From assembly GCA_947034885.2 (NCBI GenBank), contig OX344753.2:10850001-10914000 (forward strand): a stretch of 64,000 nucleotides of DNA, given 5' to 3'. The notes under the pieces were generated by a model. That model ran no database searches and was not told the DNA's origin. It was given only the letters and a program-made list of their open reading frames with translations. Both the position numbers and the translations under genes were made by a program. Positions 12,320-49,388 of the stretch are shown here, in pieces (within the stretch, counting starts at the first letter, position 1; every line of letters starts with the position of its first letter). This DNA comes from Thuidium tamariscinum (lineage: Eukaryota; Streptophyta; Bryopsida; Hypnales; Thuidiaceae).

Positions 12320-12973
12320 TTAATCCCTAAATGTCCAAGATCTTTTTTGAACTTCTAGGAATTTGATCTAAAGTGAACCAAAAGTAAACTTTTTGATGAA
12401 CTTTATCAATTTAAAAAAAATGTAACTGGCCAAATTCAAACTAGACATGTTGGAGATTTCTTAGGAAAAGAAAACATGACAATATCACTTGTGGATTGAA
12501 AGATTATAATGTTTGATCATGAAAGTGTTAAAATTGCAAAAGTGATGTGAAGTCTTTCAATCCTCTTCTTACAAGTCAAAACTAAAATGTTGGTGACCAA
12601 AAAAATATGAAGTGAAAGGCCTAACATGCATAACCTCAATCAATTTATAGCTTCTCAAAATCTACTCTACAATCTTTTTAAATTAATTTCTGATGTGACT
12701 TTTTCTCCAAGATTTAGTGTATTTGAGGCTCATTTCCAAGAACCCTAAACACTAGAGAAAGTCAAGATTGCAATGGGTACCCTTGCACAAAAAATTTGAA
12801 TAGAAAAATCATAATCAATCATTTTCAAGATTGAATTTTTTGTGCTTAAAGTAGACTTTGAAAAGAATTCTCTAAAAATAAAAACTACTAAAAATAGCAA
12901 CTTAATTAGGTTTTCTTTTACTTCAAAGTTTTGCAAACACCAAATTTTGGTGCATTAGGCATTTAGCGGTTAA
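12320..12973. mobile_element. TTAA-flanked (piggyBac-like) non-autonomous element, family 1
   Basis: A 654-bp stretch bounded by TTAA on each side (12320-12323, 12970-12973). The left end reads TTAATCCCTAAATGTCCAAG. It is the reverse-complement relative of the 655-bp element at 36197-36851: both contain the CACCAAATTTTGGTG palindrome near one end and AACTTCTAGGAATTTG / CAAATTTCAAGAAGC-type sequence near the other. TTAA duplications with CCC-starting ends are the known signature of piggyBac elements. Non-coding. Confidence 0.7.
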
Positions 12974-13450
12974 CCCCTCAACGCCCAAGCTTGGATGGTG
13001 AGTTCGAGGTGGATGGAATGATCCTTTTACTATACATGGATTTTTGGGAAATTGGAGGAGTTGTTTGACATTTTCACCGTTGATTTAGGTTTGTAAATAT
13101 GCTCCAAAATAATTTGTTTTGATCATTTTTGATGAACTTCACCGTCCTGATTTCAAGATCATAATAGTTGGAATGAGGCTTAAGTGAGTGACAAGAAGGA
13201 AGACGGCGGTGACAATCAAAAGTTCCAAAAGAATATTTGCATTCATTAAGGTAGGCCCGTACAATTAGATTACATTTGTTCCCTACTCATTTAATCGTTG
13301 GTTAGTCATTAATTAGGATTTTTTAGGATTAGTAGTTTGGATTTTGTTTAACTTTTATTATATTAGGTTTAATGATCCAAATAGATAAAACAAAATCCAA
13401 AAAAATATCTATAGAATAATAGAACAAATTAATAAACAATTAGGGGTTAA
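12970..13450. mobile_element. TTAA-flanked (piggyBac-like) non-autonomous element, family 2
   Basis: A 481-bp stretch that begins at the same TTAA that ends the previous element. Left end TTAACCCCTCAACGCCC; right end read inward TTAACCCCTAATTG (TTAA at 13447-13450). Two elements sharing one TTAA suggests insertion of one exactly next to the other. The interior is unlike the other families. Non-coding. Confidence 0.55.
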
Positions 13451-14908
13451 TATTTTTAAAGATTTGATTTGATTTAGGAGATTGAACAATTTGGAATATT
13501 AAAAGTAATTCCAAAAAAATTAGGTATTGTTTAAAATACTTCAAAATTGATAAATTTCTAGACAATCAAGGAAAAAACAATAAACAAGGGAAATTTGAAC
13601 CAACAATTGGATTCAAATTCAAATTTCACAATAGATTACCAAAATGGAGGGAGTGGATATTACAAAACAATTCATTTGGTGGTTCTCAAAGATGGTAAGG
13701 TGGAGTCTTTTGAAGGAGAGGTATATAAAATCAACATTTTATTTTGATTTTTTTTTAATTTGATATGTTAAATTTCTAATTAAAAATTAATCCTTAGGTT
13801 AAAATTTTAGAATTAGAATTTAGAACATAGTAGTATAGTTGTTAGAATTTTTTTTAAATATATTATACTTAAAAAATAACCAAAAAATAAGAAAGATATA
13901 AGTAGATGAACTTTAGATGTTAATTTTGATGAAAATTTAAAATTTTCATCTAAATGAATCCAAAAGGGAATACAAAAACTTTAGTAGGATCTAGAATTTT
14001 TAGGTCAAAATAAAAGTTGAATTGCTTGCTCAAACCAAAATTAATTGAGGAATGACATTTAATTTGCTAATTTTCAAACAAATTTCATCCATATTCTCCC
14101 ATATAGACTTTGCTAAAAATTACACCTTCCAAGTACAAGAGGAAGTCCAATTTGAAAATTTTAATAGTATTGTTGATATTATTTTTGTGCATATCATTTA
14201 AGGAGGAATTGTTGATATAAAAATGATGGTTCTTCCATATTGGAGGAGTTACATTTTTACATTTGTAATAATGAGAAATATAACAAATTTTTGTTTAACT
14301 TTTCTTGCTTCAACATTATTTGGAAGTGGCTACAAAACTTCAAGTTCATGTCTTTTAATTAAGCTAATTGTTTTGTAAAATGGCTAGACATCCCAATTTA
14401 AAGGTTGTAATGGATTGTATTTTTTTTAAAGTTTGTTGTATAAATTAGAGGTTAAAGTATCAAGTAGACCTATAGCATATAGAAAATGGAATATGAAAGG
14501 TGAATTCACCAACCTTGTGAATGCCAATTCCATAATCACATTGCAAATTTGGTTTATGCATATGTCACCTATTTCTAATGCTTTAATTTTGGCACTTATA
14601 GATAAGTAGGATGAGATTGGGATAATGATTAGTAGTAAACTTAGGCAAAATAATGCCAACATTGTAGAGTTTTTGCAAGAGGGACTTTCTACAAGGGTGT
14701 TATTTTTCTACAATAGTCACAAGTCAAAGATTTTTAGAAATTCTAATACATCTCAACAACAATTATGATTTGGAGAAAGAAGTAGGAGGCTAAAAACAAT
14801 TTTGGATTTGGACAATACCATTTAATAGCATTGATTTCATTTCTTTAGTTCATCTCTCCAAAAGTTCAAGTTGACAATCAATTGTGGCATTTTTCTTGTG
14901 GTAATTCA

Positions 14909-15247
14909 CATTAGATGAAATTTGAGGGCAAGAAGAGGCTGTAAGTTCCTAGACTATAGGAACTCCAAGGAAAGATTGCCACATTAGTAGTTTGACCTAG
15001 TCGAGACTATGCCATATGAGATATTAATTTAATTTAATTAATTAATTATTATCAATAAAATTGAAAATTGAAAATTATCTTTTCAATTTCTTAATATTTT
15101 TTGAAAATTTTGAATTAAAATTGTTTTTTTAAGAAAATTAAAAAACTTAGGCTATCACAATTGCTTCACAGTACCTAAACAATAGAAGGAATAGCTAGGG
15201 GAATAACCTTGAAACAATCTCTTCTTGCCCTCTAATTTCATCTAATG
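14909..15247. mobile_element. Foldback MITE, CATTAG family, copy 2
   Basis: Inverted ends are CATTAGATGAAATTTGAGGG (left) and CATTAGATGAAATTAGAGGG (right, read inward), each followed by CAAGAAGAG. Together they give a near-perfect 29-bp terminal inverted repeat. The interior shares layout with the copy at 6912. Non-coding. Confidence 0.7.
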
Positions 15248-17095
15248 CTTGTTTATTTGTACAATGTATCAATAATGAATGGCAATGCAACAAAACTTTA
15301 TGTTTAAGTGTATATACTACTACAAATTCAAGGACCAAAACAACAAAATTTCAACTAAAATCTATTGGTTTCATTTGATGTTTTAGATGCATTGTTTTAG
15401 ACAATAGTCAACTAATATTTGTTGTTTTGGTCAAATTAAAAAAATGTTTTTTTGGGCCCCAAATTACCCAATATTAGAAAAAATTTCAAATTTTCACTGC
15501 CTTGGGATTTTGGACAACCACACAACATGCCCTATCTTTTGTTGCCAATTTGGTTTGAACCCATGACCTCATGCCTAACAACCCAAGAACCACAACCAAT
15601 ACATTGACATTCAACTTTCATGTTTTCATGAGGAATTTTTTTCTTACTTATCCATTTACACTTCATTATTTTTAAACTCAACAAACTTTAGCAGCCATTT
15701 TGGAATAGTAAAATAACTTTCTTCTAAAAACTTTATACTAAAAAAAGTTGTCAAATCAAGCTGAATTTCAGCTTCAAAAATCCATTTGTGATTTTGAGCC
15801 TCAAATCAAAAGTTATAGCCAAAAATTAGAGAGGATGTTTCAAAATGTCAAAAAAATGTTCTTTGCCCCCACTCTCTGATTTTTATGCATAACTTTTAAC
15901 TAGAGGCTCAAAATCACAAACAGGTTTTTTGGATGTGAAATTTAGCTTTACGTGACAACATTTTTTAGTCCAAAGTAAAAAAAAAGTTATCTGCTATTCC
16001 AAAATGCCCACCAAAGTCAGCTAAATTAAAAAAGACTTTGAATTTTGAATGATTAAGTTAAAAAAAAAATCATGTTACTCAAAATTCCAATTGTGGTGTT
16101 TTTACTCCTACCATTAGAGAAAATATGAACTCTCTACAAGGCCGTCAAGGTTTGACATGCAAGTTTGTTATTGGAACTCTACTGAGCTACAAGAAGACGA
16201 AATCATTGACAAAGATGGGTTTCAGCTTGTGTGAATATCAGGAGCATTTGTCATTTTTCTTCTTTTTTAATTCCGGATTTGTTAGAGGAGTTATTTCAAA
16301 GCCACTCCAATATAGTTTCTTATCATTTGCAATTACTTTTGTCAGGAGAGATGATAAGCTCCTACTTTCATGGTTCACCTGGAAGCCACAACTTGAATAT
16401 GTGTTTCATTTTCTCTGCGATGAAATGCTCTGACAATTGCAAAATTGACATTAACAATAATAGGGGAAAAAACGTGTCAAGCAAAAATAAATGTTATCTC
16501 AAAGTCCCTCTAGCACTTCTTAGAAGTCTTATAGAGAGTCAATATTTTCTCAAATGATGCCTAAGGCACTAAATTTTGGTATCAACAATATTTCAAAGTT
16601 GAATTGAAAGTTATCAAGTTATTAATTTTAATGGTTCATTTTTCTTAAAATTCTTTTTGAAATCTAGATTTAGCATCAAAACACCATGTTTGAAAATGAA
16701 TGATTATGAATTTTCAATTTAATATTTTGTTCAAGGGTGTCTATTGCTAATCTTCATTTTCTAAAGGGTAATTAATTATTTGACATCAATTTCCCAATTT
16801 TGATCAACATAATGATAAAGGTAGAAGAACGATCTAAGATCTTCTAAAATCTCAAAAAATGTACTCCTCATTAAATTTAGTCTAAAGATTTCCAAAAATT
16901 TCTCAAAATTTCCCTAAGATTTCAAATTTTTTTCCAAAGATTCTAAAGAGATTCCAAATATTCTAAAAAGATTTTGAATTCAACAAAAACTTGTCCACTA
17001 TAGTTGATTAAATAACAATTAAGTGCCATATATGATTGCCTTGCAACTACAACCATTGTTATTAGCACTAGTCTTATTTATACATTGTTTTCAAA

Positions 17096-18069
17096 TTAAC
17101 TCCTATAGGATTTTGACTATGTTTCCACCAAAGTCACTCTAAAACTGTGATTTCTAATACAAATGCAATTTTTTTGAAAAAAAACATTTTTTTGATATAT
17201 TTAACCGTAGGGTCTTGTATTTAAGTGGTTTGAAAAGATGTAGAAAAAATTTCAAAAATTTTTACCATGTAGATTGCAAGATTTTAACATTTTAACTAGC
17301 AAAAATCCTTTTTTTTATCCTTGCAAAAACCCGGGCAACAACATTTCACAAGGTCACATTTGTATGAAAAAATACTCAAAATGATGGTCACTCTTTGAAT
17401 TCATTTTACAATGCAAGTTGGCTTTATGCTCCAAAAATTTTAGATCATTTGGAATTTTTTTAACAGATAGGAAAAAAATAGATAGTAGAAAGAAGTAGAA
17501 AATGCTTGAAAATACTAAATTGCTAACAATTTATTTATAAAAATGAAAAATGTCAATCCAAATGGTTAAAGTATTGCAATAAACAATCTTCACCCAATTT
17601 TTTAGTTTTTTTTTCAAAAATATTAAAAATTGAATTAAATAAATAATTTCAAACTTTTTTGTACATTAAAGATTCTATAACTACTTGCAAACTACCCCAA
17701 ACTAAAATTCCTCATAACTTTTGACTCATTTATTGAAATGGAATGATTCAAAGCTTTCCACAAAGATAAAAATCTAATAAACCAATTTTAAATTTTTATT
17801 TTTAGAAAAAGTAATTTTTGAAGAATTTTTTTTTGCTGCCCGTGCTGCCCAGACTCCCAGAGTGCTTGTAGTTTGAACAAAACAACATACCATGCCATAA
17901 GTTTTTAACCATGCAGCTAAAATTTATGAAAATTGTTGGGCCTTGAAGCTATTCCTTGGACACATGTTGTGTGAAAATTTCAAAGAAAAAAAATAAAAAC
18001 TCCATTTGTAATGAGTTGCCTCAAATCGTTATGTTGCCAAAAAATACAATTCAGGGCTTTAGGAGTTAA
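17096..18069. mobile_element. TTAA-flanked (piggyBac-like) element, family 3, copy 1
   Basis: About 974 bp, from TTAACTCCTATAGG (17096) to CTTTAGGAGTTAA (18066-18069). It shares its internal order with the copies at 23083-24044 and 34410-35339: a TAACCGTAGGGTCTTGTA-like motif near the left, then AAACTACCCC, AAATGGAATGATTCAAAGC, CTGCCC, AAAATTGTTGGGCCTT and TGTGTGAAAATTT. No open frame spans it. The right half of this sequence also forms the giant hairpin at 18676-19422. Confidence 0.7.
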
Positions 18070-18070
18070 G

Positions 18071-18675: not shown

Positions 18676-19422
18676 TTAACCCCTAAATGCCTAAGCTGCG
18701 TTTTTTGGCATTATAATTTTTTTGGGCAGCTCATTACGAATGGAGTTTTTATTTTTTTTCTTTGAAATTTTCACACAACATGTGTCCGAGGAGTAGCTTC
18801 AAGGCCCAACAATTTTTGTAACTTTTGACTTTGTGGTTAAGAAGCTATGGCATGATATGTCATTTTGTTTGAAGTGAGGGCAGCCCGGGCAGCTGAAAAA
18901 ACTTCTTTAAAAAAACTTTTTTTTCAAAAGTGAAATTTCAAATTGATTCTTTAGGTTTTTACAGACATGGGAAGCTTTGGATAATTCCATTTGGATTCAT
19001 GAGTCAAAAGTTATGAAGAATTTTAGTTTGTGGGTAGGTATGGAATTCGAAAACTCCATACCTACCCACAAACTAAAATTCCTCATAACTTTTGACTTGT
19101 GAATCCAAATGGAATGATCCAAAGCTTCCCATGTCTGTAAAAACCTAAAGAATCAATTTGAAATTTCACTTTTGAAAAAAAAGTTTTTTAAAGAAGTTTT
19201 TTCAGCTGCCCGGGCTGCCCTCACTTCAAACAAAATGACATATCATGCCATAACTTCTTAACCACAAAGTCAAAAATTACGAAAATTGTTGGGTCTTAAA
19301 GCTACTCCTTGGACACATGTTGTGTGAAAATTTCAAAGAAAAAAAATAAAAACTCCATTCGTAGTAAGTTGCCCCAAAAAATTATAATGCCAAAAAACGC
19401 AGCTGAGACATTTAGGGGTTAA
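18676..19422. repeat. Giant near-perfect hairpin made of two head-to-head half elements, TTAA ends
   Basis: Two arms of about 365 bp, nearly identical in inverted orientation, meet at a short loop near 19045 (CATACCTACCCAC on the right, GTGGGTAGGTATG on the left). The outer ends are TTAACCCCTAAATG and CATTTAGGGGTTAA, so the whole 747 bp has the TTAA plus CCCCT termini of the piggyBac-like elements. Each arm corresponds to the right half of family 3. It looks like a transposon rearranged into a long inverted repeat; a transcript would be almost fully double stranded. Confidence 0.8.
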
Positions 19423-20259: not shown

Positions 20260-20498
20260 CGGCAACGATGCTAGTGTGTTAGCATGAACATGCGAGCATG
20301 TGAGCTTCTAGTATATATAAGTAGATATACTACCACCTTTGAAGGTGTTTATAGTAAAAAGACGTATAATATAGATACCTACAATGTAAATATACTCTTA
20401 TCATAAAAGGTTTCTATAGTATAAGCACCTATATTATAGGTGCATGATCTTTGAGGCTCATAAGCTCACACTTCTATACTCACATACTAGCAACCCTC
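20260..20498. mobile_element. Mutator-like MITE, copy 2
   Basis: 239 bp, flanked by the 9-bp direct repeat TTTCCTCAC (20251-20259 and 20499-20507). It has the same inverted ends (GATGCTAGTGTGTTAGCATG / GTTGCTAGTATGTGAG) and interior (GTATATATAAGTAGATAT, TTGAAGGTGTTTATA) as copy 1. Confidence 0.8.
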
Positions 20499-20714
20499 TT
20501 TCCTCACTTGTCAAACTCTTTTGTGGTCTAACTTAATTTAGGTGATGTAAACAAGGGCAATTTAGAGGGAAAGGTATATTTACATTTTACACCTAGTGTT
20601 TGCTAACATCAATTATAAAATCATAATATCTTTGACAAGGACATAAAGGTGCTATTTTAAAGGAACATTTGTTTTGAGTTGGTTTGGCATTGGTATGGCA
20701 TAATTAGGGTCATC

Positions 20715-22390
20715 TTAACCCCTCATTGCCAAAAGTCCAATTGTGCCTAAAAATTTCTTGCTTTTCAAGCTTTATTTGTCTATATGCCACTAAAATATAA
20801 AGATTTTAACCGTACAATCTTCTAGTGTGCATCTTGAAAATGACTTAGATCAAATTTGGAGTCATTTGATTGTATAGATTGAAAGATTATTGTGTTTTAG
20901 TGTTGAAAATAGATGTTGAAATTTTCCTAAAAACACATGTAGAGGTCAAATTTGATTTCTAAACCTATTTGAATGTAAAAGCTTTAAACTAAAAAGTGTT
21001 TCAAAATCAACTTATAAAGACATTGGTGAAAAAAATGTCATTCAATTAATTCATTGTGTTTGCAAAATGACTTAGAAATTTCACAGAAATAGCAAAAAAG
21101 GGTGCAAAAAACATAACAATAGTTGGACCTCCTTTTAGGGTCATTGCAAGAAACACCGGTCCTATTTCACGTCACACCGCGAACCACTTTTTTGTTTTCC
21201 ACTATAACTTTTGGAGATTAAGTCCAATGAACATGAAATTTTTATTGAACATACCTAACTTGAAGTTTATTAGATTCTTTATTTTTCAGAAATTAAAAAA
21301 AATCATTTTATATTTAAAAAACATTTTCGTTGAGCTGTCACATAAATACGTTGATGGTTACCATTACGTTCGCAGTGTCTAAATTTAATGATTTGAAGAA
21401 GAAACTTTCATGGTCTATTTGCATAGGTGTAAAACCTATGAATTCCAAAAAGAAAATCTAAAAATATGTTTTTTTATGTCCTCCACATGAGTACAATTTT
21501 TTTTCCGTGGCACGCAATTTTTGAACATTGATGATGGTTCTAAGATCGTTCTTTTGGTCAAATCTCATCAAAATCAACTTTCCTCAAATGGCCAATTTTT
21601 AGTTTTTCTTAAAATTGATTTTCCTATTTTTTACAAATTAAAATGTGGAAGTACTCATTTTCATGAGATTTTGCACTTTTCTGGATTTCCTACTTAGAGA
21701 TTTTTCCTATGCCTTTCCTTTCTAGGGTACCTTCTTCTTAAAGGTTTATACATGAAACATATTTTCACTTTTTTTAAAACTTGTTTTTCTAATTTTAAAG
21801 TACTCCCGGAAAAAAAAAATACTATTGAAAACGCTACGTTTTTTGCACGGTGTTTCTTGCAATGACCCTCTACTAAAATGCTTCTTAGTCACTCATAACT
21901 TTTTGGATTGATATGAAATTTCAGCCACACAAAGAAAACTAAAATGTACAACTTTTCCCCAAAAAATGATTAGAAATAGACTATATATGAAGAAGAAACA
22001 AGCCTTTAAAGTTTATTGTAATCCAAAAATCATTGTATTTTGAACTTTGAATTGCTCCCTAACATTCAAAACAACTTGCATTGCCATGAAAATTTGACCA
22101 CAATAACTAGATTTCTATAGAAATATAACACAATAAATTTGATTGAAAACAAACATTGGATGAAGGAGATACAAGCTTTTGAAGTTGTAGCCATCAACTT
22201 TAGTATGGTGAACTCAAATTGAACCTACTAACTTTAATTGGCTCACAAAGTATCTTTACATTTTGGATAGATCTAAAAATTTACCATGCAAATTAGACTA
22301 GTGTGTGCAACTTTTCCAACAAGTTTTATTGAATTTGGACATTGGATGCAAAAATTATAGCACTTTGAATTGGATTGCTAGACTTTGAGG
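20715..22390. mobile_element. TTAA (piggyBac-like) element, family 4, interrupted by another element
   Basis: Starts TTAACCCCTCATTGCC. Its outer parts (20715-21136 and 21870 to about 22390) align in reverse complement with the intact 928-bp element at 48461-49388; motifs such as CTCTACTAAAATGCTTCTTAG and ATTGAACTCAAATT-type sequence are shared. The right end is decayed, with no TTAA left. A 733-bp foreign element sits inside (listed separately). Removing it leaves about 940 bp, the expected length. Confidence 0.65.
21137..21869. mobile_element. 733-bp DNA transposon with 22-bp perfect inverted ends, nested in a TTAA element
   Basis: Begins AGGGTCATTGCAAGAAACAC and ends with the exact reverse complement of its first 22 bases. 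The related empty copy at 48461-49388 reads straight through the insertion point (reverse complement ACCTCC then CTCTACTAAAATG), which shows this block was inserted. A clear target duplication is not visible; left of the element there are four T that the empty site lacks. No long open frame. A diverged single end (AGGGTGATTGCAAGAAATAC) occurs at 61174, so the family is repeated. The superfamily is unresolved. Confidence 0.7.
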
Positions 22391-23082
22391 ATACTTTTCG
22401 TCCACTTCCATGATGAGGAGTACTACCACAACAATGTTCTTCATAGAGGATACCTTTTCCTCTCTAGAGTTCTCATTGTACATTATGAAGAATAAAGTAA
22501 GCTTCAATATCAATGTCATTTGACCACTTGTTATAAAAAAATAAAAATTGGTTGCAAAATGAAGGGAATGCTTCATTCACATTTGTAGGAATGAAGGATA
22601 GAGAAGTTGTTTTTATAATCAAATCCATTTTTGGTCACGAATCTCCAAAGGGTATGGGAAAATATGAAGATGAGAGTTTGACAGTTCATTGTCAAAATAT
22701 AAAAATTATGTATGAATTGGAAGTTGAAACCTCATTTAGGCATAGTGAAATATTTTTTTTCAAAAACTTTGAACTATAAAAATTTTGTAAATTAATCTAA
22801 CATCCATTTCCAAATTTTTTTTCTAAATTTGAGCCTCCAATCAAAATATATGCACAAAGTTTAAAGTAGATGTTTGAAAATGTCAAAGAAAATGTCCATT
22901 CCAACCCTCTCTAAAGTTTGTCTAAAACATTTTATTGGAGGCTTTCAAAATCAAAAAAAGAATTTGAAGATGAATTTAAACTTGATGTCCCAATTTTTCT
23001 TAGTCCAAAGTTTAAAAATTATTATTATTCCAATATGCTTAAATTAGGGTTAAAATTTTAATTCAAATGCAATTCCTACTTT

Positions 23083-24044
23083 TGACTAAACTCCTAAAGT
23101 TTTTTACCATGTTTTCACCAAAAACACTCCAAAATTGCCATATCTAGCACACATGCAAAATTTTAGTTATGAAATAATTTTTGATACATGTAACTATAGA
23201 ATCTGTATTCATACATTTTAAGAAGATGAGGAAAAATTTCAAAAATTTCAGCCATGTAGCTTGTAAGATACTAGTGTTTGAATTGACAAATATCTTTTTT
23301 TTAAATTTGAAAAAAATAGACAACTACACTTTAGATGGTCACATTTGCATGAAAAAATGCCTAAATTGGTGGTTATTCCTTAGATTCATTTTTCAAAACA
23401 AGTTGGCTATGTGCTTGGAAATTTTTAGATCATTTTGAGTTGTACAACAAATAGGGGAAAAATAATAAATAGAAAGAAATAGAGAATGATTCAAAATACC
23501 AAATTATAAACAAATTCTTTATCGAGTTGAAAAATACCAATCCTAGAGGTTAAAATGTTGTAAGAAACAACCTAAATCTAAACCTTATTTTTCTATTTTT
23601 TAATTCCAAAATATTAAATGTTGAATAAAATAAAGGATTTCAAACTTTTTTTAGACTAGAGAGTCTTTAATAACTCACAAACTACCCCAAACTAAACTGA
23701 CTTGTCTTAAGTTCTGACTGATTTATCAAAATAGAATGATTTAAATCTTTCTACTTAGATATAAATCTAAAAAAACAATTTCAAATTTTTATTTTTTAGA
23801 AAAGTCATTTTTCAAGAAGTTATTTTTTTGCTTAAGTTGCTTGTTGAGCAATGAAACTACTTACCATACATGAGACCGTACAATAACTTTTTAACCATGA
23901 AGTCAAAATTTATGAAAATTGTTGGGCCTTAAAGCTACTTCTCTAGTATATGTGTAAAAATTTTAAAGAAAAAAATTCCATCTACAGTGAACTACTTGAA
24001 ATTGCTATATTGCCAAAAAACCTAGTTTAGATTCTAGGGGTTAA
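23083..24044. mobile_element. TTAA (piggyBac-like) element, family 3, copy 2 (decayed)
   Basis: The left end is mutated to CTAAACTCCTAAAG; the right end is ATTCTAGGGGTTAA (TTAA 24041-24044). Internal motif order is as in 17096-18069, including ACTACCCCAAACTAAA, AGAATGATTTAAATC and AAAATTGTTGGGCCTTAAAG. More diverged than the other copies. Confidence 0.6.
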
Positions 24045-24893
24045 TTATAATCAATAAAGCCCTACTAATTTAAAATTACATAACCCAAATGGTTTGTTTT
24101 GAACCTACTACCCTATATGACTATAAATAGTTTCTCTTTAAAATTCCAAATACAAACAATGAATGGCTTTTGAAGCAAGTGAGATAGATCATTGAATTAA
24201 TGTTGGCAATTTTGTACTTGCCCGTACCTCCTTGCATTACAAAAGACCAATGTTTGTACCCAAAAATCTACAAAATTCAAAGATTCAAACTTATGTGACA
24301 ACCACCTATAAATAAATGTCAAAGAATGATGAATAGTTGTAAACTTTCCTTTAGTAACACAACTTGTAACCTTTGCTAGCTTTGCAACCACATAGGTTTG
24401 GCGCTTACGAAGGAATGATAAAGTAGAGAAACCTAAAAGTAACACTTATTCACAACTTATACACATCTTGAGGGAAGCTACAAAATAAGACAATGTGCGC
24501 TTAATATTAAATGGTTAAGGAAACCAACAAAATTGGTTTCATATTTTTGTATGCTTGTATGAATATAATACAAATTTGTAAAAACAATTGTATAGATGCA
24601 TCTACTGTGGAGAATACACTGATACACAAGTGATCCCCAAGCATCCAAATACAACAAATCCTAAGCTTACATCACTCGCAAGAGATTGGCGAACATGGAA
24701 TTCACCCTCATCATCATAATAACTTCCTATACCTTCCCTATCAACTTTGAATTTACTTGAATGTTACTTTAGGGTTTATTTTAGGTGTCATTAAACAAAC
24801 CCTAGTACATTTGTGTGCTTTTACTTCAGTCAAATCTCCTACCAAAATAATTGCGTACCATCATTCCAAAGAACACTTCTTAAGGGCAGGTTT

Positions 24894-25033
24894 GTACTGA
24901 AAAACTTAAGTTGGATCCCAAAAAAATGGAGTATTATGATTGGAAGATAGCTATGAAACCAACCCAAAGTTCCAATCAAAACGCTTCAATTGTTTGGGAT
25001 CCAACCCCAATTTTTTTGGTGTCAACAGGACCC
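24894..25033. mobile_element. Tourist-like (PIF/Harbinger) MITE, copy 1
   Basis: A 140-bp foldback with TAA immediately left (24891-24893) and a mutated AAA right. Ends are GGGCAGGTTTGTACTG and, read inward, GGGTCCTGTTGACACC. It shares the interior TTGGGTT...TTCCAATCAAAAC with the cleaner copy at 37356-37508. It lies about 230 bp upstream of the H2B TATA box and so could form part of the distal promoter. Confidence 0.65.
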
Positions 25034-25175
25034 AAATTTTTCAGGGGTGGAGGACATAATCCGGTTTTTGAAAGTGGCTGGCCGTCCCGCCAATTTACGA
25101 ACTCCCCTCTCCTTCTCCTCTTCGAAGTGCTCGGGCGGGAAGAGGCACTGGCGCCAAGCTCGGTTTCGAAATCCC

Positions 25176-25199
25176 ACCGTCCGATCCAGATCGGACGGT
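25176..25199. promoter_or_regulatory. Perfect palindrome in the H2B promoter
   Basis: Two 11-bp arms, ACCGTCCGATC and its exact reverse complement, separated by CA, 64 bp upstream of the TATA box. It is GC-rich and lies in a GC-rich island with a CCAAT motif (reverse ATTGG near 25238). A dyad of this kind suggests a dimeric factor site. It is not the standard plant histone octamer (CGCGGATC). Confidence 0.5.
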
Positions 25200-25262
25200 C
25201 CAAACCGTCAATCCTCGGTAGGAAAATCGAGCCCGCCCATTGGCTCTGGTCGGAACCCCAGG

Positions 25263-25268
25263 TATAAA
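25263..25268 (+). promoter_or_regulatory. TATA box of histone H2B
   Basis: TATAAA located 118 bp before the H2B start codon. It predicts transcription starting around 25293-25298 and a leader of about 90 nt. A GCCCATTGGCT motif (inverted CCAAT) lies about 25 bp upstream. Confidence 0.7.
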
Positions 25269-25385
25269 GCATTTTGGACCGTCCTCTTCATCACAGTTCT
25301 CACACGCCATTCACAGCCTCGTTCGCAATTGTCGAATCCTCTTCGTTTTCTCTTTGTATTTCTCGTTCGATTTTCAGTTGCTGCA

Positions 25386-25919
25386 ATGGCGCCCAAGGTT
25401 GCAGAGGAGCAGAAGGCCGGCAAGTCCAAGGCCGAGAAGAAGCCCGTGGTGAAGAAGGCGGAGAAGAAGATCAAGGCCGACACCAAGGGCGACGCGAAGA
25501 AGAAGCGCTCGAAGAAGAGCGTAGAGACATACAAGATTTACATTTACAAGGTGTTGAAGCAGGTACGTTGCTGTGGTTTGGTATCTTTTCTTTGGTGTTT
25601 TGTGATTTTGGAAGTTGGCTTAGTGGTGTGTTTGAAATAGGGAAGGGGAACGGATTTTTCTAACGGCCTTTTTTTTCTGGAGCAGGTGCATCCTGATACT
25701 GGTATCTCATCGAAGGCGATGGGAATTATGAACTCGTTCATCAACGACATCTTCGAGAAGCTTGCGCAGGAGGCCGCTCGTTTGGCGCGCTACAACAAGA
25801 AGCCGACAATCACCAGCCGCGAGATCCAGACTGCAGTGCGTCTGATCTTGCCTGGCGAGTTGGCGAAGCACGCGGTGTCTGAAGGGACAAAGGCGGTGAC
25901 GAAGTTCACGAGTGCGTGA
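25386..25919 (+). CDS. Histone H2B (one intron)
   Basis: Core histone that pairs with H2A in the nucleosome. Exon 1 is 25386-25562 and exon 2 is 25686-25919, giving 136 aa. The Lys-rich N-terminal tail ([15 protein letters not shown]..., residues 1-45) carries several AEKK repeats. The fold starts at [19 protein letters not shown] and continues through [20 protein letters not shown] and [20 protein letters not shown]. The C-terminus [12 protein letters not shown] is the conserved ubiquitination-site helix (Lys of GTKAVTK). The 123-bp intron (donor CAG|GTACG, acceptor GAGCAG|GTG) falls in phase 0 after the Gln of VLKQ. In many plants the major H2B genes are intronless, so the intron is notable. 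The gene sits in a GC-rich island with its own TATA box. Confidence 0.97.
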
Positions 25920-33151: not shown

Positions 33152-34091
33152 TAGCTAAGAGGGCAAGTATAGGTTCAATGTGATAAGTAGGGTGCATGAA
33201 GGAAAGATAGTGGGCATTGAGGCTAATAAATGTTATGTTGCATTCATTGTTGTCAAAGACTTCATTTTGAAAACAAAGAAATGAGAACTTGGAAAAAAGG
33301 TTTGATCTCCAAACCAAGCTATTTAAAAGACATTGTGCACTCTCCTACATTCCCAAATTAGACTGGTTAAATAGAGGAAGGGGGGGCAAGTGACAGAAGA
33401 TTCTAATGCACTAAAGAACACAACATTTGGATACGATATGCTATAGTTACAAAGGGTCAAAGTTTTTTGAATAGAGGTTTTTAAATCATTTCTTCCACAT
33501 CAATCCATATATACTTTGGAAGATGCACATTGAATGATAATGGTGGTTCTAGGATCACTGGGGCATTTGGAAGGAGTCATCTTTATGTAAGCTTTGAAGG
33601 AAAAAAAGAAAAGACTTCATCAAGTACAATAGAATAGACTTTAAATTAATTTTTTGAATAGGTGAATATTATACCAATTTTAGGGGGTATTAAAATTGAT
33701 AGTTTATTCATAGAGGGGCCAAAAATATACAAGAAAGGAATACACTTTTGACTTCAAACAAGATTCATCCAAATATTAGGCAATTTAATATTAAAAACAA
33801 CCAATTGCTTATTAAGATTCATTCAGGTGTAACTCCCCTAAAATATTTTTGAATGGATAGAGGAAAAGAATCACCATTGAATATCACATGCATTAATCTT
33901 TGTTGATGATAAAATTCTATACAAGGTCCTCAATAGGTCTAAGTTGTAAAAGTCTTCATACTATTGTAAATGAAGTAAGACTCATATTAGCATTTTATAT
34001 CTAAAAGCATCATTAATGCATTCAACAAAATGATCTTTCAAATAAATAACTCTTGAATGATTACAAAACTCAAGATTGCTACTATTGGAAG

Positions 34092-34329
34092 CAATGGTTC
34101 TAATATGTGAGCATGAAATGTGAGCATGTAAGCTTTGAGTATATATATAAGTTGATATACTACAACCATGGAAGGTGCTCATAACATAAACACCTATAAT
34201 ATACATATTTATAATATAGAATCTCCAATAATTATAAATTTTTTCTTTAATATAGACACCTATATTACATATGTATAGTCTTTTAAGTTCATGGGCTTAC
34301 ACTTCTAGGCTCACATAATAGCAACCCTC
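34092..34329. mobile_element. Mutator-like MITE, copy 3
   Basis: 238 bp with a perfect 10-bp target duplication CTATTGGAAG (34082-34091 and 34330-34339). It carries the same ends (CTAATATGTGAGCATGAAA / TGCTATTATGTGAGCC) and interior as copies 1, 2 and 4. Confidence 0.8.
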
Positions 34330-34409: not shown

Positions 34410-35339
34410 TTAACCCCTAAATTACCAAGGCATTTTCTGGCTCTAAAACCACTGAAAACTGCCATTTCTGCTGCAATCACTCAAGAAATCTAAAAAGAAC
34501 TTTTTTCCCAGAATCTAACCGTAGGATCTTGTAATTCACTTGTTTCAAATCATGTGGTAAGAATTTCATGAAGTTTGACTATACGGATTGGAAGATATTA
34601 GCATTTGAAGTTGAAAAAAAAAGTTTTTTTCAACTGCGGCCTGCAATTTCAGGTGACTTTGACAGACATTTGTGGATTTTTTTTGCACTACACACCATAA
34701 GGTTAAAATTTTTTATCTTGAAAATTTGAGTTGAGAGTTGGGGAAAAAAATTTCAGAATGTCAAAACTTGATTTTCACATATAAATAAATTGTTAAGTAG
34801 AAGTAGGTCCAATGTTGAACAAAATACTAAATTGTTAATAGCCCTTAGATGGAATTAAAAAATCATAATCCCAACGGTGGGATTGTTCTTGAAAACAAAC
34901 TTAACCTTTTCAAAAAAAATAATTGAAAAAAATTGAAAATTGCATTCAAAAATGAATTCTATAAGTTGTTTTTTGAAGAAGATGCTTAGATTGCCCCAAA
35001 AACAAGATTGTCCATAACTTTTTCATTATTAGTCCAAATAGGATGAATCAAAGCTTCAAATGTAGACAAAAACATAATATTTCAGAAAAAAAATTGAAAA
35101 AAAAAATTTTCATTTTTTTGTGGTTTTTTTTTTCTGCCCGCCGAACTGCTTTTTTGACTTCGGATGGCAAAACTTCTGCTCCCAGGCACCGATTGAAAAA
35201 AAACACTATATTTTTAGAAAGCTGATGTGATTTCCTATCTTCAAAAAAAGTTTCAAAAAATTAGGTCAAAACTTCAGGTCACATGAGCCTGCCCGAAATC
35301 CCAAGTGTCCCGAGGGGACTTTGGGAATTTAGGGGTTAA
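34410..35339. mobile_element. TTAA (piggyBac-like) element, family 3, copy 3
   Basis: 930 bp from TTAACCCCTAAATTACC to GGAATTTAGGGGTTAA. Both TTAA are intact (34410-34413, 35336-35339) and the first 12 bases of both ends are identical when read inward (TTAACCCCTAAA). The interior shares AACCGTAGGATCTTGTAATTC with 17096-18069. It is somewhat GC-richer near the ends. Non-coding. Confidence 0.8.
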
Positions 35340-36196: not shown

Positions 36197-36851
36197 TTAA
36201 CTCCTAATTGCCTAAATCACCAAAATTTGGTGTTAGCAAAACTTTAAAGTTAAATAAAACCTAACCAAGTTGCTATTTTTAGTAGTTTGTATTTTTTGGA
36301 AAGATCTTCTAGAAGTCTAATTTTAGTGTTAAAAATTAGATCAAGAAAATGAATGATAGTGATTTTTCTATATAAGTTTTTATGCAAGGGTACCCCTTGC
36401 AATCTTGACTTTCCATAGTGTTGAGAGCTCTTGAAAATGAGCCTCAAATACACTAGATCTTGGAGAGAAAATCACATTCAAAATTCATTTTCAAAAATTG
36501 TAGAGTAGATTTTGAGGAGCCATAAATTGATTGGGGTTGTGCATGTTAGGTTCTTTAACCTCCTATTTTTTTGTCACCAAATTTTTAGATTTAACTTGCA
36601 AAAAGAGGATAGAAACACTTTACATCACTTTTGCAATTTTAACACCCTCATGGTCAAACATTATAATCTTCCAATCCATGAGTGCTATTGTTGTGTTTTC
36701 TTTTCCTATGCAATCTGTAATATGTCTAGTTTAAATTTGTACAGTTACAATTATAAAAAAATTGATACATGTTATCAAAATGTTGGCATTTTGTTCAACT
36801 TAGAGCAAATTTCAAGAAGCTCAAAACAGGCCTTGGGCATTTAGGGGTTAA
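36197..36851. mobile_element. TTAA (piggyBac-like) element, family 1, copy 2
   Basis: 655 bp between TTAA at 36197-36200 and 36848-36851. Ends TTAACTCCTAATTGCC and, read inward, TTAACCCCTAAATGCCCAAG. It matches 12320-12973 in reverse complement with nearly the same length, which fixes both boundaries. Confidence 0.8.
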
Positions 36852-37105: not shown

Positions 37106-40100
37106 TCAAGACCGTTCACCAGCAGTCTTTGGAAGTGTCGCCAAAGACACATAGTCTTGCGCTTGCTCCTCAAGTAACCCCAAGTCTTCCACAAGCCCAT
37201 GGACGATCACGTTTCGATATGACACCGGAGGAGCTAATATTTCAAACTCCCCAGACCTGAATTCCTGCATCTGAGATTCTGAGCATCTGTGGATGGTACC
37301 ATGCCAAAACACCCACATGTGAGAAAAACTGAGAATTCTTTCAATGCTGATATAAGCGCCTGTTTACACCACTGAAAAACTTTGGGTTGGAGCCCAACGA
37401 AATGGAGAGTTTTGATTGTAACTTTGGGTTGATACCATAGCTATTTTCCAATCAAAACATTCCATTTCTTTGGGTTCCAACCCGTATTTTTTGGGTGTAA
37501 ACAGACCCTAAAAACAGAGTGTATTTTGCACTGGGTAGGAAATGGCCAGATGAAGACTTCTAAGGTGACAAATTGCTACATGGAACACTCAAGATAAAGG
37601 ACACAGTTATGAGAAAAGTGAGACTCTTTCAGCTTCCTCTGGTTTTGGCTGATTCCCACATTGACCTACTTCAACCAGTTGTATCCATAGAGTACATGGA
37701 AGAACAAAACATTGTGTCCTCAATACATGCACAAACTATTGAAGTGCATGTGCTGCGAGCAGATAGTATTTGTCCTCCGGTGTACTCTCCGGATACATAT
37801 AATCAAATTAGGTCAAATGTTGGGAAATAGAGTGGCGCACCTTAGAGCTTGTCAAATCACAAGAACAGCATTCAAAGTCCCATCAGTGTATAAACATGAT
37901 ACGTACGTAAAGGTTAAAATTGGAAGACCGTCTTTCTCCCCAAGGTATAGCACGGTTCCATACCAGGACCCCTGTAAGAAATAACAGAATTACAACATGA
38001 GAGTTGGCAAGAAAAATGAATCAATAGTAGACACAAGTTAATTTTTTTTTCAGAAACAAGGCTCTTATACGCATATTACCAGAGATTTCTCACGATGGAA
38101 CCTTCTAGCATATGGAAACCAAACAAAGGCATGAACTTCAAATGTGGTCCATCACCTCTAAAGCCTACATGAAATTTGAAGCGTATCTCAATATTGACAT
38201 TACCTTAAAAATTTCCAACGAATGATGAGGTGTCTTCTTCAACACATTCATGTGTCTCCCGATCCCCCAGTTCTTCTCAACTCTGCCTGGATTTTCTTGA
38301 CTGATGACATCATTAAATTGTTCCATTCTGAAATCATGGGAAAAGGTAGGAGGTAAACAAATTGAACAGTGTGATGCAGTGTGATGCACACACTTCTTGA
38401 CAAAATGGTATCTATAAGAACAGTAACAAAATCACTGGAAACAACTAATAATCAGAAAAAATGAAATTAAAAAAAATTAAACTGACTTTCTGGATATGAA
38501 ACTAAAACAACTGGCACATGAAAAGAAGAAGGAAACAGTCTCACGTAATTTTGTAGGTTCGCACATGTGTGAGAACACCAGGTTCTGGAACAGGGTCAAT
38601 AAATGCAACCCCTCCTGGACCCCACATTCTCGTGCCCTTGTGTCCAAAGAATAAGCGGTTGGGGATGGATAGCCATTCTGAAGCCACAGGAGGTGAGTTA
38701 TCTCTACACCCCAGGCATGACCGTGACATGCCTTCTATCTGCATAGAGACCAACAAATACAAAGTATGCTCCATCATATTCGTTACATTAGCAAAGTTTC
38801 CAAAATATGGTGCATTTGGAAAATCGCTCCCAACTAAAAACTGGAGTGGTTAAAGACGCCCATCTCGAGCTGGAGTGGTATGCAACACTCAAATGAAATC
38901 CTAGATCTATACAATTTCTAGACTTTAGACCCCTGAGAATTTGGAAACGCGGTATCCAATAGGAACTACGGTTACTACACCTAATTTAGATACAGTAAGC
39001 ATTCAGTATAGTTATATTTTTACACTAACCAAGTTCCTTTTTTTTGGTCAAAAATGTTGAGGAGATTTTGATGCAAAATGCATTATTAACATACAGTATG
39101 CAAAAGTTAAAAGGCTTCAAAGTTTGTTGGTAGTTGACCTAAAACAGGCAAAAATTCTGATGTTAGTTCTGTGCATATTCTCAAATTCAATACGTACTCA
39201 CCATCAAAGATCATTTACGGTACCATTTAAGATACCAATTTGAATTAGATGTGGTTCCCTTATAGCAGTTTGAGACTCCCATCTTGACCCAGAGCAGATT
39301 TGTGACACTCATTTGAAACCTGAGATCTATGTTCTTCAAAGATTTAGAGTTAGTTGGGCAACAATAATCCCGCCCACTTGAAAGTCCTTATTTTCAGCAC
39401 TAGAATATCGGATTTTTGACACTAAAATTTGCCTGAGTAAGGAATATGTGTAACAATATCTTTAGAATAACTCTTCTGAACGTAAACAATATGAGAGACC
39501 CAGGCATGGAGTAGATATTATTCAACTTTGAAGTTATGCATACCTTTCCTCCTTCAATGTAACACATGAACCGTGGCTTGTACATGTTAGATCCATAACA
39601 GGCATACCAAATATGGCTGGATTCCGCTATCTCATCACCCACAGGATGTTCTATTGCACTGCTCAAGTCACTTTCCACCTCTACTGCAACTCCATTTAAA
39701 ACATTCTCCTCATCTGCAGTCATAATATTGAGAAGAACACTAATAGCTCAAATAAACTATACACGTAAAGAATTTTGTAGTACAATGCAATTTCTTCTGT
39801 CCAATTTCAAAGGACTTTGAAAAGTGAGAACATTATCTGTCAAAGAAGTATTAGAGCTTAAATAGTGTTTTCATCAAATCATTAGATTATAAACAGGTGG
39901 ATACAAGATCATTGGTGCAGTAAAGAATCGCTTGAAATAAAGTGGACACCATTATATAAACTTGAAAGTGAGCAGTCGACTTGAACTTCAAACAATGGAC
40001 AAGTTTTAGCATTAGCAAAATGGGTCTACTGGACAGGAATGCTACCCAAGACGGTGGCCTTCACAAATTCAGAGAAAATCACGTCTCATTATCTCACCAG

Positions 40101-45225: not shown

Positions 45226-45230
45226 ATCAC

Positions 45231-45478
45231 TTAACCCCTAAGCGACACAAACCAAATAGCTCTGAAGACAGGACCATTCTAAAAAAGCAACATAATTTGA
45301 ATCTGAATTGATTATTGCATTCCTCACCATGCAGATCTATAGCCAACAACCTCATCAATCTAGACTCATTTCTTTGGAGGAAATCCATCGTACGGATGCA
45401 TACATTATAAGGTTTGATGAACCCAGTCTCCCACAATCAAAGGTTTGAAAAACATCCCCTCTGACGTTCAAGGATTAA
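45231..45478. mobile_element. Short TTAA (piggyBac-like) element
   Basis: 248 bp from TTAACCCCTAAGCGACAC to, read inward, TTAATCCTTGAACGTC. Ends are of the CCCCT type with mismatches. The interior is GC-richer than its surroundings and unlike the other families. Boundaries rest on the two ends only. Confidence 0.45.
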
Positions 45479-45533
45479 TTGATTGGTTACTAGTGCCTCG
45501 ACCTTAATTAATTTGGTTACTTCTCTTGCAGAA

Positions 45534-45784
45534 CCAACAATGCTAATATGTAAGCATGAAAGTGTGAGCATGTGAACCTTGAGCATATATAAATATGTAT
45601 CATGCAATCATTGAAGGTGTTTATAATATAAACACCTATGACATAGGTACTTATAACATACATACGCTATTAACATAAAAAGTTATTATAATATAGACAC
45701 TTATATCATAGGTATATAATCTTCTAAACTCATAGGCGCACACTTTCATGCTCACACTTTTATACTCACGTAATAACAACCCTC
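45534..45784. mobile_element. Mutator-like MITE, copy 4
   Basis: 251 bp, flanked by CTTGCAGAA and CTTGCATAA (8 of 9 identical; 45525-45533, 45785-45793). Ends TGCTAATATGTAAGCATG and, inward, GTTATTACGTGAGTATAAAAG. It is slightly longer than the others because of an extra repeat of the TCACACTTT motif at the right end. Confidence 0.75.
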
Positions 45785-46111: not shown

Positions 46112-47405
46112 CGGTGGACAAGGCGTGCGCACAGAAATGGCCGGAGAGACAGATTGATATCGGCAAGAGTATGGATTAACCTGCAAGGGTTTCAATTTGC
46201 GCGTGGCAATGCAAAACATTTTGTCACAGCAACGAGTAAGGAGACAATGCACGCCAGTTTCTCTTCCTAAAAAACATGTGGGCCTCTACTTACGCGCAAT
46301 CCGCATCTTTCAGCTTGCCAATCCTCCGCATCGAAATGACCACGACGAAGCTATGGGAGAATGAAACCTCACAGTCATCAGAGGTCCGAAACAAGGCGTC
46401 AGGCTTTGAAATCGCGAAGGTGATAAAAAAGCGATGCGCACAGAGGATATCGGAGGAGAGAAAGATTGGTAGGGACGAACACGGATTAGGCTGCAAGGGT
46501 TTCAATTTGCACGAGGAAAGGCAAAACATTTTGTCACAGCAACGTTGATGAACAAGGAGCAAGGAGACAATGCACGCCAGTTTCTCTTCCTAAAAAACAT
46601 GTGGGCCTCTACTTACGCGCAATCCGCATCTTTCAGCTTGCTAAACCTCCGCATCGAAGTGACCAAGACGAAGCTATGGGAGGATGAAACCTCTCAGTCA
46701 TCAGAGGTCCGAAACAAGGCGTCAGGCTTTGAAATCGCGAAGGTGATAAAAAAGCGATGCGCACAGAGGTTATCGGAGGAGAGAGATTGGTAGGGACGAA
46801 CACGGATTAGGCTGCAAGGGTTTCAATAGCGGATGGAAATGCACATTCTGTAGCAGAAATATCGGTGGCTATGGAGAAAGACTATATTGCGCGTCTCTTT
46901 CTCTTCCTTATAAAAGTCTAGGTCTCCACTAACGAGCTCAGCCTGCCAATTTTCCACTTCAAATCAGCAAGACGGGGCTACGAGGGAATTCAACCTCAAA
47001 ATCACCAGAGCTCCGAAACAAGACTCCAGGCTTTGAAGGTGCGAAGCCATGCACACAGAAGAAATTGGTGGAGAGACAGACTGTCAGGGCATGAAAACGA
47101 ATAAGGCTGCAAGGGTTCCAATTTGCGCATGGAAATGCAACTATTCTGTCACAACAACTTTGGTGGCCAAGGGTTCCAATTTGCGCATGGAAATGCAAAC
47201 ATTCTGTCACAACAACTTTGGTGGCCAAGGAGCAAATATATATTGGGGGTCTGTTTCTCTTCTTTACAAAAATCTAGGTCTCTATTTGCGCGCAATCCGC
47301 ATCACCAATTTTCCACTTCAAAATCATCAAGACGGGGCACCAGGGAACTTCAACCTCAAGATCATCAGAGCTCCGAAACAAGGCGCCATCAATTGAAGGT
47401 GCGAA
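46112..47405. repeat. Tandem array of about 0.32-kb units
   Basis: Four imperfect units, marked by the phrase TTTCTCTTC at about 46258, 46581, 46908 and 47254, with a partial unit before them. Each unit holds the pyrimidine tract, a TATAAAAG-like variant (clearest at 46918), GCGCAATCCGCATC, a stretch AAACAAGGCGTCAGGCTTTG and GGCTGCAAGGGTTTCAATTTGCG. Units 1 and 2 are nearly identical; units 3 and 4 are more diverged. Within unit 3 a 58-bp segment is duplicated exactly in tandem (47111-47168, 47169-47226) with two differences. Frames run across the units on both strands but none is preserved in all units, so coding is doubtful. A duplicated promoter plus first exon is one possible explanation. 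Confidence 0.75.
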
Positions 47406-48460
47406 CGCCCTGGCAGCACTACACTTGCAGCAAACGCCCGTCACCCGTAATGCAACTCGATGTCATTTGCGAACAGTGGCAATCGTAACGTTAATGCAAG
47501 TGGCAAACATTGATAGTTTTCTTCCTTGCAGAAGGGAACTATTCCACCCGAAGTTCAGCGACCGCCGTGAGCATGAGAAGCTTCCGTCAGGACCTTGTCC
47601 ACCATATCCTAATAAAGCTATTCCAGAAATTGATGAGAAACAGGCAGAACCACCTTGGAAATACTACGGTGTCTTTCAACACAAACATGTAGGAGTACAA
47701 ATTAAGCGAGAGGTCAGTGGCCACTCGCACAATCCTCTGTCTGGCGGACTCATCAGCCATCTCTAAAAAGACCACAATGGGCTCACTCAAATCACAAGGA
47801 AAATGAGAGCAACAGGTTTCCTTGGCCAAACTCGACGGTGAGGGAAAGGATAACAAAAACCTGACAGACGTTGATTGCAAAGGGAGAAGAGCCAGGTGGC
47901 TGCACTGGCGTTGCCGACATTGATCCCGTAACTTGAGTCGCTAAAACATTCAGCTTCTGTAATTTACAGAATTCAAACTTGGCACTCCATTGTGGGTTCC
48001 GTAGCTTCAATTTTGTACCTATGAAATTTCTGAGTAGAATTTAAGCAAAATATTGAAACGTTGAAGACCGTTGGTTGCAGAGATGGAGTAGCCCGTCGAT
48101 TCTTCAGCAAACATAGACTAGCAGTTGATCTTGATCTTTGCTCTCGAGTGACTTGTTAGCCCGACTATCCTTGAAGTTAGTGGGTGCCCTAATTTCCAAA
48201 CACTTGACTGCCTGGCTAAATCCCGAGACGTTGGGTCTGGAGGCGCCTTGTTTCTACTTGCGGGGATTTGCTGTTACTTCGATGGCTATGGCGTTTCTTC
48301 AAGAACCGTTATTGCATCTCTTCACTCGCACTAAGCCCCGACACAATTTTGAAGAGGGAGTCCAATTCGTGCTTGCAATCTTCTCCGCGAACGACCTGCT
48401 CCACATTTTTGCTCAGACGGTGCCATTCTTTGCTTTCAAGTAGATCATTACATTGTGCAA
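47406..48460. other. Coding-looking but unassigned region
   Basis: Several short stretches look like exons. On plus, 47533-47713 follows a TTCCTTGCAG acceptor and ends before GTCAGTGG, and encodes a Pro/Lys-rich stretch ending in KYYGVFQHKHVGVQIKRE. On minus, about 47871-47714 contains EMADESARQRIVRVATDLSL. On minus, 48450-48309 contains ESKEWHRLSKNVEQVVRGED and ends at a stop. They do not join into one gene and I recognise none. The right boundary is the TTAA element at 48461, so a minus-strand gene may have been cut off from its upstream part. Confidence 0.4.
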
Positions 48461-49388
48461 TTAACCCTTCATCATGTGGCAGTTCAATTCGAAGCTGTAA
48501 CTTTTGCATTCAGTAAAACTTGTTGGAAAATGTGGGCTCTCTCTTCTAGGTTGTGTAGTAAAATTTTCAGATTGATCTAAGACTTACTGATTTTTTGAAA
48601 GCCAATTGAAGTTTAGAGTTTTAATTTGAGTTCACCAAACTGCATTTCATGGCTATAACTTTGGGGGCTTGTATCTCCTTCATTCAATGTTTGTTTTCAG
48701 TAAAAATTTGTTGAATTATATTCTTCTAAAAGTCTAATTATTGTGGTAAAATTTTCATGGCAATCCAAGTTGTTTGGAATGTTTGTGAGCAATTCAAAGA
48801 TAAAAAATTTGACATTTTTGGATTACAATGAACTTTGGTGGCTTATTTCTACTTCATACATTGTTTGTTTCCAATAGTTTTTTTTTGAAAAAGTTGTGAA
48901 TATTAGTCTAGTTCTTGTGGCAAAAATTTCATATCAATCCAAGAATTTATAAGTGACTAAGAAGCATTTTAGTAGAGGGAGGTTTAGCTATAGATGTGTT
49001 TTTTACAACTTTTTTGGGGACATTTTGAAACAATTCTACAAACACAATGAGTCAATTAAATAATATTTTCTTTTATCAATGTCTTGGTATACAATCTTTG
49101 AATCACTTTATAGTTCAAACTTTTTTCATTTGAATAGGTTTAGAAATTAAATTTCACCTCCAAATGTGTTTTTAGGAAAAATTTAACATCTTTTTTCAAC
49201 ACTAATAGATTATAATCTTACAATTTATGTGGCTAAATGACTCCAAATTTGATTGATGTCATCTGCAACACACACTACAAGATTGTACGGTAGAAATTTT
49301 CATACCTCAATGACATTTAGACTCATAACACTTGAAAAGGAAAGATGCTTGTAGACATTAAGATGCTTTAGGCAAAGTTAAGGGTTAA
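48461..49388. mobile_element. TTAA (piggyBac-like) element, family 4, intact-length copy
   Basis: 928 bp between TTAA at 48461-48464 and 49385-49388. Ends TTAACCCTTCATCATG and, inward, TTAACCCTTAACTTTGCC. It matches the split element at 20715-22390 in reverse complement and provides the empty site for the 733-bp insertion there. Non-coding. Confidence 0.78.

Follow-up and report, generated by a model that had tools for sequence, protein, structure and literature searches.

Transposons of the piggyBac superfamily are best known from animals, and piggyBac serves as a tool with which genes can be inserted and removed without a scar. Its transposase binds the termini, excises the element via TTAA hairpins and inserts it at TTAA (PMC7351741), while the terminal motif CC[C/T]T (PMC2872659) is described along with inverted repeats of 12-19 bp; one published coral family starts with CCCCT (PMC2872659). 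Plants are counted among the hosts of piggyBac-like elements on the strength of a cited survey (PMC8086355), piggyBac is named among the superfamilies of angiosperm miniature inverted-repeat transposable elements (MITEs) (PMC10004981), the repeat table of the C-fern genome holds 1,230 PiggyBac copies making up 122 kb (PMC6890710), and a feather-grass paper lists one PiggyBac (PMC8319324); the plant work reviewed in PMC10905368 uses insect piggyBac. Here we describe a population of TTAA-flanked, CCCCT-ended stretches in a 64,000-nucleotide piece of a plant genome (G000:C5:10850001-10914000, hereafter the window; the genome comprises 363 Mb on 19 contigs). We consider these stretches to be MITE-like, non-autonomous members of several old piggyBac families, with a probability of roughly 0.96, a reading supported by TTAA-linked termini genome-wide, by paralogous uncut sites and by matching ends on transposase-bearing copies.

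TTAA-flanked elements in the window

The original prediction had listed nine stretches flanked by TTAA and ending in CCCCT, in families said to recur in both orientations. Seven of the nine indeed carry C-rich inverted termini with TTAA on either side; the remaining two, 23083-24044 and 20715-22390, do not stand as they were written, each having one decayed end, yet alignment identifies both as family members (at 72% and 75-78% identity, respectively). Relatives were sought by BLAST in a sample of loci (L-numbers) fetched from the same genome. The recurrence in both orientations is borne out by family A, whose two window elements, of 654 bp at 12320..12973 (plus strand, 19-bp inverted termini at 79%) and 655 bp at 36197..36851 (minus strand), both have TTAA at either end and are 82% identical over 657 columns, the likeness ending at TTAA on both sides. 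Further family A copies are present elsewhere in the genome, and the full-length ones in the sample share 71-88% identity with the two window copies, which are, judged by this divergence, old. A decayed fragment at 16557..16769 (minus strand) resembles the right-hand portion of family A (71% over 215 columns).

Directly adjoining the first family A element, with one common TTAA, lies element G (481 bp, 12970..13450, no strand assigned, TTAA at both ends). A second copy was not found in the fetched sample, so its boundaries are drawn from the termini alone; its left end TTAACCCCTCAACGCC matches the terminus TTAACCCCTCACCGCC of a transposase-bearing element at 15 of 16 positions. Abutting elements with a shared TTAA are found at 12970-12973 and also in L014 (6947-6950) and L016 (3444-3447). 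As a test for a special insertion preference of abutting elements, the shared-TTAA junction AGGGGTTAACCCCT was counted genome-wide and occurs at 140 places (control 0), a mild excess over the approximately 98 expected if the two sides were independent.

Family B comprises a 974-bp element, B1 (17096..18069, plus strand, TTAA at both ends), which is present in many copies among the fetched loci, and a second element placed by alignment at 23084..24044 (plus strand), which is 72% identical to B1 and has kept its right TTAA; the left TTAA is decayed, the sequence at the end listed as 23083 reading CTAAACTCCT. A palindromic derivative at 18676..19422 (no strand, TTAA at both ends) consists of two inverted B right ends and is near-perfect, with arms of about 372 bp that are 95% identical over 372 columns and each 77% identical to 17695-18069; if transcribed, it would fold into a long hairpin. 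The 930-bp B4 element (34410..35339, plus strand) has TTAA at both ends and 19-bp termini at 95%, and copies of 929 bp (L020) and 932 bp (L004) were found in the sample.

Family C is represented by a 928-bp element with TTAA at both ends (48461..49388, minus strand) and by a homolog delimited by alignment at 20715..22392 (plus strand), of which the left end is intact and the right end decayed. The latter is interrupted by a transposon, on either side of which 20726-21092 and 21866-22334 match 49375-48508 at 75-78%. This nested transposon (21135..21868, about 734 bp, no strand) belongs to another family, outside the piggyBac group. It has a 92.5% identical copy in L017 (2909-3643) and other relatives in L021 (8330-9061) and L012; the family has GGGTCATTGCAAGAAACACC inverted termini and apparent 4-bp flanking repeats, GTTA in L017 and AATT in L021. 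A short stretch of 248 bp at 45231..45478 (no strand) has TTAA ends and weakly matching termini that resemble those of L015 8118-8367; BLAST found no relative of its interior in the fetched sample, and it is listed as a possible TTAA element only. The inverted repeats are 19 bp long in both A and B4, whereas that of B1 has 13 bp and those of G and C2 have 9 bp. No open frame in the nine stretches exceeds 111 codons, the length of the longest, and the window-element frames searched (10 of the 17 with at least 55 codons) matched no protein family at its cut-off.

Genome-wide occurrence of the termini

When compared with 100 first-order Markov simulations, the window is rich in the terminus TTAACCCCT (10 observed; mean 0.58 and maximum 3 in the simulations) and in TTAA[CT][CT]CCT (16 against a mean of 3.97 and a maximum of 11). 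For the shorter TTAACCC the enrichment is only mild (16 observed; mean 9.13, maximum 16), hence the signal resides in the longer terminus. Across the genome TTAACCCCT occurs 30,159 times (15,145 forward, 15,014 reverse) versus 3,948 times (1,956 and 1,992) for the reversed pattern used as a control; taking two perfect ends per element and ignoring decayed or solo ends, we estimate from this surplus of about 26,200 termini that there are some 13,000 elements. The 16-mer CCCCTAAATGCCCAAG is found 1,445 times (741 forward, 704 reverse) and the family A terminus TTAACCCCTAAATGCCCAAG 1,131 times (578 and 553), with no occurrence of either control. Perfect 16-bp termini stand directly behind TTAA in 1,131 of 1,445 cases (78%); TTAA occupies 0.64% of positions (447 in 70,000 bases from seven loci). 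The 100 listed matches to TTAACCCCTAAATGCCCAAG include seven facing pairs spaced 554-655 bp apart, as family A predicts. In a mismatch-graded sample of termini, part of which was selected for TTAACCCCT, TTAA lies ahead of 15 of the 19 termini with 0-2 mismatches and a one-base variant ahead of three more. Most ends begin with CCC.

Transposase genes and full-length copies

A search of the genome with the piggyBac transposase profile PF13843 gave 659 first-look candidates, and all 116 that were scored exceed the cut-off (E 5.7e-80 to 1.4e-70), 74 of them by hand count being free of internal stops; the same search of 14 control genomes found none. The LEAFY SAM domain has six matches in the genome (best E 1.6e-27) and none in 14 control genomes. 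LEAFY is not known outside streptophytes, and these matches therefore identify the host as a streptophyte plant. A frame of 1,023 codons is common to 11 rows of the scored transposase table (269.4-269.6 bits), of which two were aligned at the DNA level. All six frames that were translated match PF13843 with E of 9.2e-73 or lower; the other five share 30 to 45% identity with the first. In the 1,023-residue frame the match begins at residue 533, and in a 1,214-residue frame at residue 732. Alignment of the six proteins reveals invariant D676 (T-x-DE), D781 (DNF), and D897 and D900 (GVDxxDQ), of which D676, D781 and D897 are the catalytic aspartates (DDD) of these transposases, as well as an invariant C-terminal set (H982, C994, C997, C1005, C1008, C1013, C1017 and H1022). 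Compared with solved structures, the first protein matches only piggyBat (9c0f, 1.1e-27) and Trichoplusia ni piggyBac (6x67, 1.1e-22). A search for relatives in viral contigs produced 63 pattern matches, none of which was confirmed by tblastn.

TTAA-CCC termini flank the gene on both sides at six of the eight transposase loci examined, two of the six being copies of one element. These two, at C2:31.5M and C1:16.2M, measure 5,096 bp including both TTAA, have the ends TTAACCCCTAAACGCCGGC and TTAACCCTGAAACGCCGGG, differ by two mismatches (99.96% identity over 5,096 bp) and lie between unrelated flanks, evidence that this full-length 1,023-codon family has spread recently. The remaining four are located on C6 (L032; 5,094 bp, with 16-bp perfect ends TTAACCCCTCACCGCC), at C7:5.36M (5,946 bp, ends TTAACCCCTAAGCGCTCGAG and TTAACCCCTAAACGCCCAAG), at C3:41.1M (7,573 bp, ends TTAACCCCTAAAGGACCAAA and TTAACCCCTAAAGGTTTTGG, with a transposase match free of stops) and at C1:27.16M (L040, 1628-7196; 5,569 bp, ends TTAACCCCTAACTGCCCAGT and TTAACCCCTAAATGCCCAAG). 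The end TTAACCCCTAAATGCCCAAG of the L040 element equals the right end of 36197-36851 at 20 of 20 bases, and an end of the C7 element matches the same terminus at 19 of 20. Family A thus has terminal counterparts in C7 and L040 and element G has one in C6, where family C finds only a loose counterpart.

For family B the resemblance extends well inside the termini. Positions 782-974 of B1 match 678-486 of the C3:41.1M element, that is its left 193 bp, starting at the terminus itself (63%, E 1.1e-17); positions 91-345 match 7969-7717, equally far from the opposite end (60%, 9.7e-8). The left end of C3:41.1M is also matched by either end of the palindrome at 18676-19422 (216 columns, 65-66%), as it is by all three B copies from the sample, two of which match its right end too; beyond about position 700 of the C3 element no B similarity was reported until its right end. 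We compared the subterminal regions of the window families with five elements in a shuffle test that omitted the 22 terminal bases (160 comparisons, each judged against the best of 30 shuffles). The four comparisons of B right ends with the C3 left end (scores 58, 58, 46 and 29; best shuffle 12-16) are the top four of the 160, followed by that of the B4 left end with the C7 right end (25 versus a shuffle score of 12), where the left 179 bp of B4 match the terminal 178 bp of C7:5.36M at 59%. Family B therefore looks like an internal-deletion derivative of the C3:41.1M element, one that kept both ends of such a full-length element and lost the transposase between them. Among the five elements compared, no parent for families A, C and G was found beyond the termini.

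Nested insertions and target duplication

Three nested insertions offer a comparison with uninterrupted paralogs, the first two coming from a list of candidate empty sites that held many self-hits and tandem-repeat hits, and the third from L040. A 929-bp B4-type element (L020, 7564-8492) sits within a family A copy, and when its flanks are joined through one TTAA they align to window element 12320-12973, which has a single TTAA there, with no gap at the junction; the other window copy, 36197-36851, is also uninterrupted at this site and reads TTAG. A tandem repeat hosts the full-length 5,096-bp piggyBac at C2:31.5M in one of its units, and a further unit, which is uninterrupted, reads CTAA. 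Finally, the transposase-bearing 5,569-bp element of L040 (1628-7196) has inserted into a member of family B, at a site where all six B copies compared are continuous and read TTCA. Each of the three insertions is compatible with the duplication of four bases, TTAA or a one-base variant of it.

At L029 position 463 (G000:C2:31543963), in another unit of the host tandem repeat, we also observed a second TTAACCCCTAAGCGCC-type terminus behind the same flanking bases, which suggests that one target sequence was used repeatedly.

Mechanism and alternative explanations

The window elements carry no recognisable protein, and in the mechanism that we propose the piggyBac transposase would come from full-length copies at other places in the genome. 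The enzyme would recognise the CCCCT-type termini, cut the elements out and insert them at TTAA, which is thereby duplicated; excision would proceed through TTAA hairpins, by analogy with piggyBac (PMC7351741). By the same analogy we infer that these transposases may mobilise the window elements in trans (cross-mobilisation), by hairpin cut-and-paste, and may be active today. With odds a little better than even, the genome would harbour a still-active native piggyBac system, in which several transposase families, only 30-45% identical to one of their number and with at least one recently spread, feed on at least about 13,000 non-autonomous elements.

Other transposon groups have been weighed against this assignment. 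Kolobok elements also duplicate TTAA, but have ends of the form 5'-RR...YY-3' (PMC9587614, PMC6004289). The 17 termini listed here after TTAA, compiled from the TTAACC-like ends of the original prediction, all start with pyrimidines (13 CC, 3 CT, 1 TC), so that membership in Kolobok through its purine-first ends was rejected, and matching termini in this genome flank piggyBac transposases; a Kolobok origin is highly improbable. Sola3 elements likewise duplicate TTAA, and share with the window elements the target length and the target itself. It is nevertheless piggyBac transposases that sit between the matching termini, no search aimed at Sola transposases having been made, and we see hardly any chance that Sola3 is the correct assignment.

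A Tc1/mariner-type element with ACCCCT termini that duplicates TA within TTAA would yield identical filled and empty sequences, and would be indistinguishable in sequence from TTAA followed by CCCCT. Such an element needs only TA, yet the whole TTAA is present at 1,131 of the 1,445 perfect 16-bp termini, and the transposases that carry these termini are piggyBac, which leaves this explanation very little credence. Stowaway (Tc1/mariner), with TA and no wider fixed target, was rejected on the same 78%. Tourist (PIF/Harbinger) duplicates 3 bp (TTA/TAA), and the ends TTAACCCC...GGGGTTAA do not fit a 3-bp direct repeat; PIF/Harbinger is also contradicted by the fact that taking out an element plus 4 bp restores the register. 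As for chance, AT-rich or simple-sequence DNA might yield TTAACCCCT by itself, and the mild window enrichment of TTAACCC alone, which reaches only the maximum of the 100 simulations, would agree with this. The longer termini, their pairing, the family homology that stops at TTAA and the genome counts versus reversed controls refute it, and it is the least probable alternative of all.

Returning to the piggyBac assignment, the original prediction had rested it on termini and duplication, and it now gains transposase-encoding copies with matching ends in the same genome. The checks that it proposed came out in favour of piggyBac: the termini recur behind TTAA genome-wide, the terminal comparison with autonomous copies gave matches, along with a subterminal match for B and B4, and the uninterrupted paralogs fit a 4-bp duplication, with an exact single TTAA in one of the three nested cases. 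Several observations weigh against the assignment. The uncut paralogs of the other two nested cases read the one-base variants CTAA or TTCA; in the first case, one of the three paralogs, the uninterrupted L014 copy, shows a 2-base alignment gap at this point. Sample termini with three mismatches have TTAA ahead in only 13 of 25 cases, and nine others have TCAC. The fourth terminal base is C, and the published motif is CC[C/T]T (PMC2872659). The transposase frame at C1:27.16M has stops, and that locus was picked because a listed 20-mer lay near; in the fetched stretches, the C10 locus (L035) has a right end alone (TTAACCCTTTAAGGACC) and C1:24.98M (L031) no terminus. Families A, C and G showed no subterminal match that rose clearly above shuffles in the 160 comparisons (best z 3.9 for G and 3.1 for C). 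Lastly, mobility is here read from sequence alone.

Other features of the window

A gene for a P-type cation ATPase (PF00690, PF00122, PF00689) has exons at 54307-58640, an alcohol-dehydrogenase-like exon lies on the minus strand at 3512-3985, and the window also contains a tRNA-Trp. An H2B-like frame at 24957-25640, which looks like the start of an H2B gene, gave no match in the Pfam search. Two related foldback elements are located at 24880-25036 and 37347-37517, the former overlapping the start of this frame, upstream of its methionine. An inverted repeat of 210 bp at 6394-6603 is 97% self-complementary. A repeat of about 240 bp is present in five copies (10729-10969, 20263-20501, 34091-34329, 45535-45756 and 49691-49927); it has TATGTGAGC/GCTCACATA-like inverted ends, and TTAA ends were not seen in it.

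Comparison with known systems

The original prediction had also expected such a population to be new or poorly documented in land plants. Its abundance is unusual, but plant piggyBac-like elements are already in print (PMC8086355, PMC10004981, PMC6890710), and this is therefore not their first occurrence; the novelty lies in scale and intactness, namely the abundance, the open transposases and the recent full-length copies. Among the matches listed by a literature search on piggyBac with bryophytes or green plants, the excerpts contained no report of native piggyBac in bryophytes, and we found no account of so large a population with open transposases in this host. The survey cited for plant hosts is probably that of Bouallegue in 2017. 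With many open native transposase frames and thousands of likely substrates at hand, one can ask how old the superfamily is in plants, whether horizontal transfer was involved, and whether plant-adapted transposases perform better in plants. If the system is indeed active, it would constitute a home-grown plant source of seamless-excision transposases. TTAA elements in such genomes can now be annotated correctly.

With the piggyBac/piggyBat superfamily our elements share the TTAA duplication, the C-rich inverted termini, the PF13843 transposase, the DDD residues and a Cys-rich tail. They differ in their host, which is a plant, in termini that begin with CCCCT, and in the long N-terminal parts of some frames, these being frame lengths rather than mapped start codons. 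The order of the Cys/His tail, in which an invariant His lies upstream and C....H closes the series, is nearer to the Pgm type than to that of T. ni (PMC8086355). The Kolobok T2-MITEs of Xenopus have the same TTAA duplication, but purine-first ends and a different transposase (PMC6004289). The coral CMITEs and other piggyBac/TTAA MITEs (PMC2872659) are likewise non-coding, carry TTAA and CCC(C)T termini, including CCCCTCAGTGTCCG, and reside with piggyBac transposases. Whereas the coral CMITEs measure about 100 bp (PMC2872659), the elements described here span about 480-975 bp, with several unrelated interiors and one palindromic derivative.

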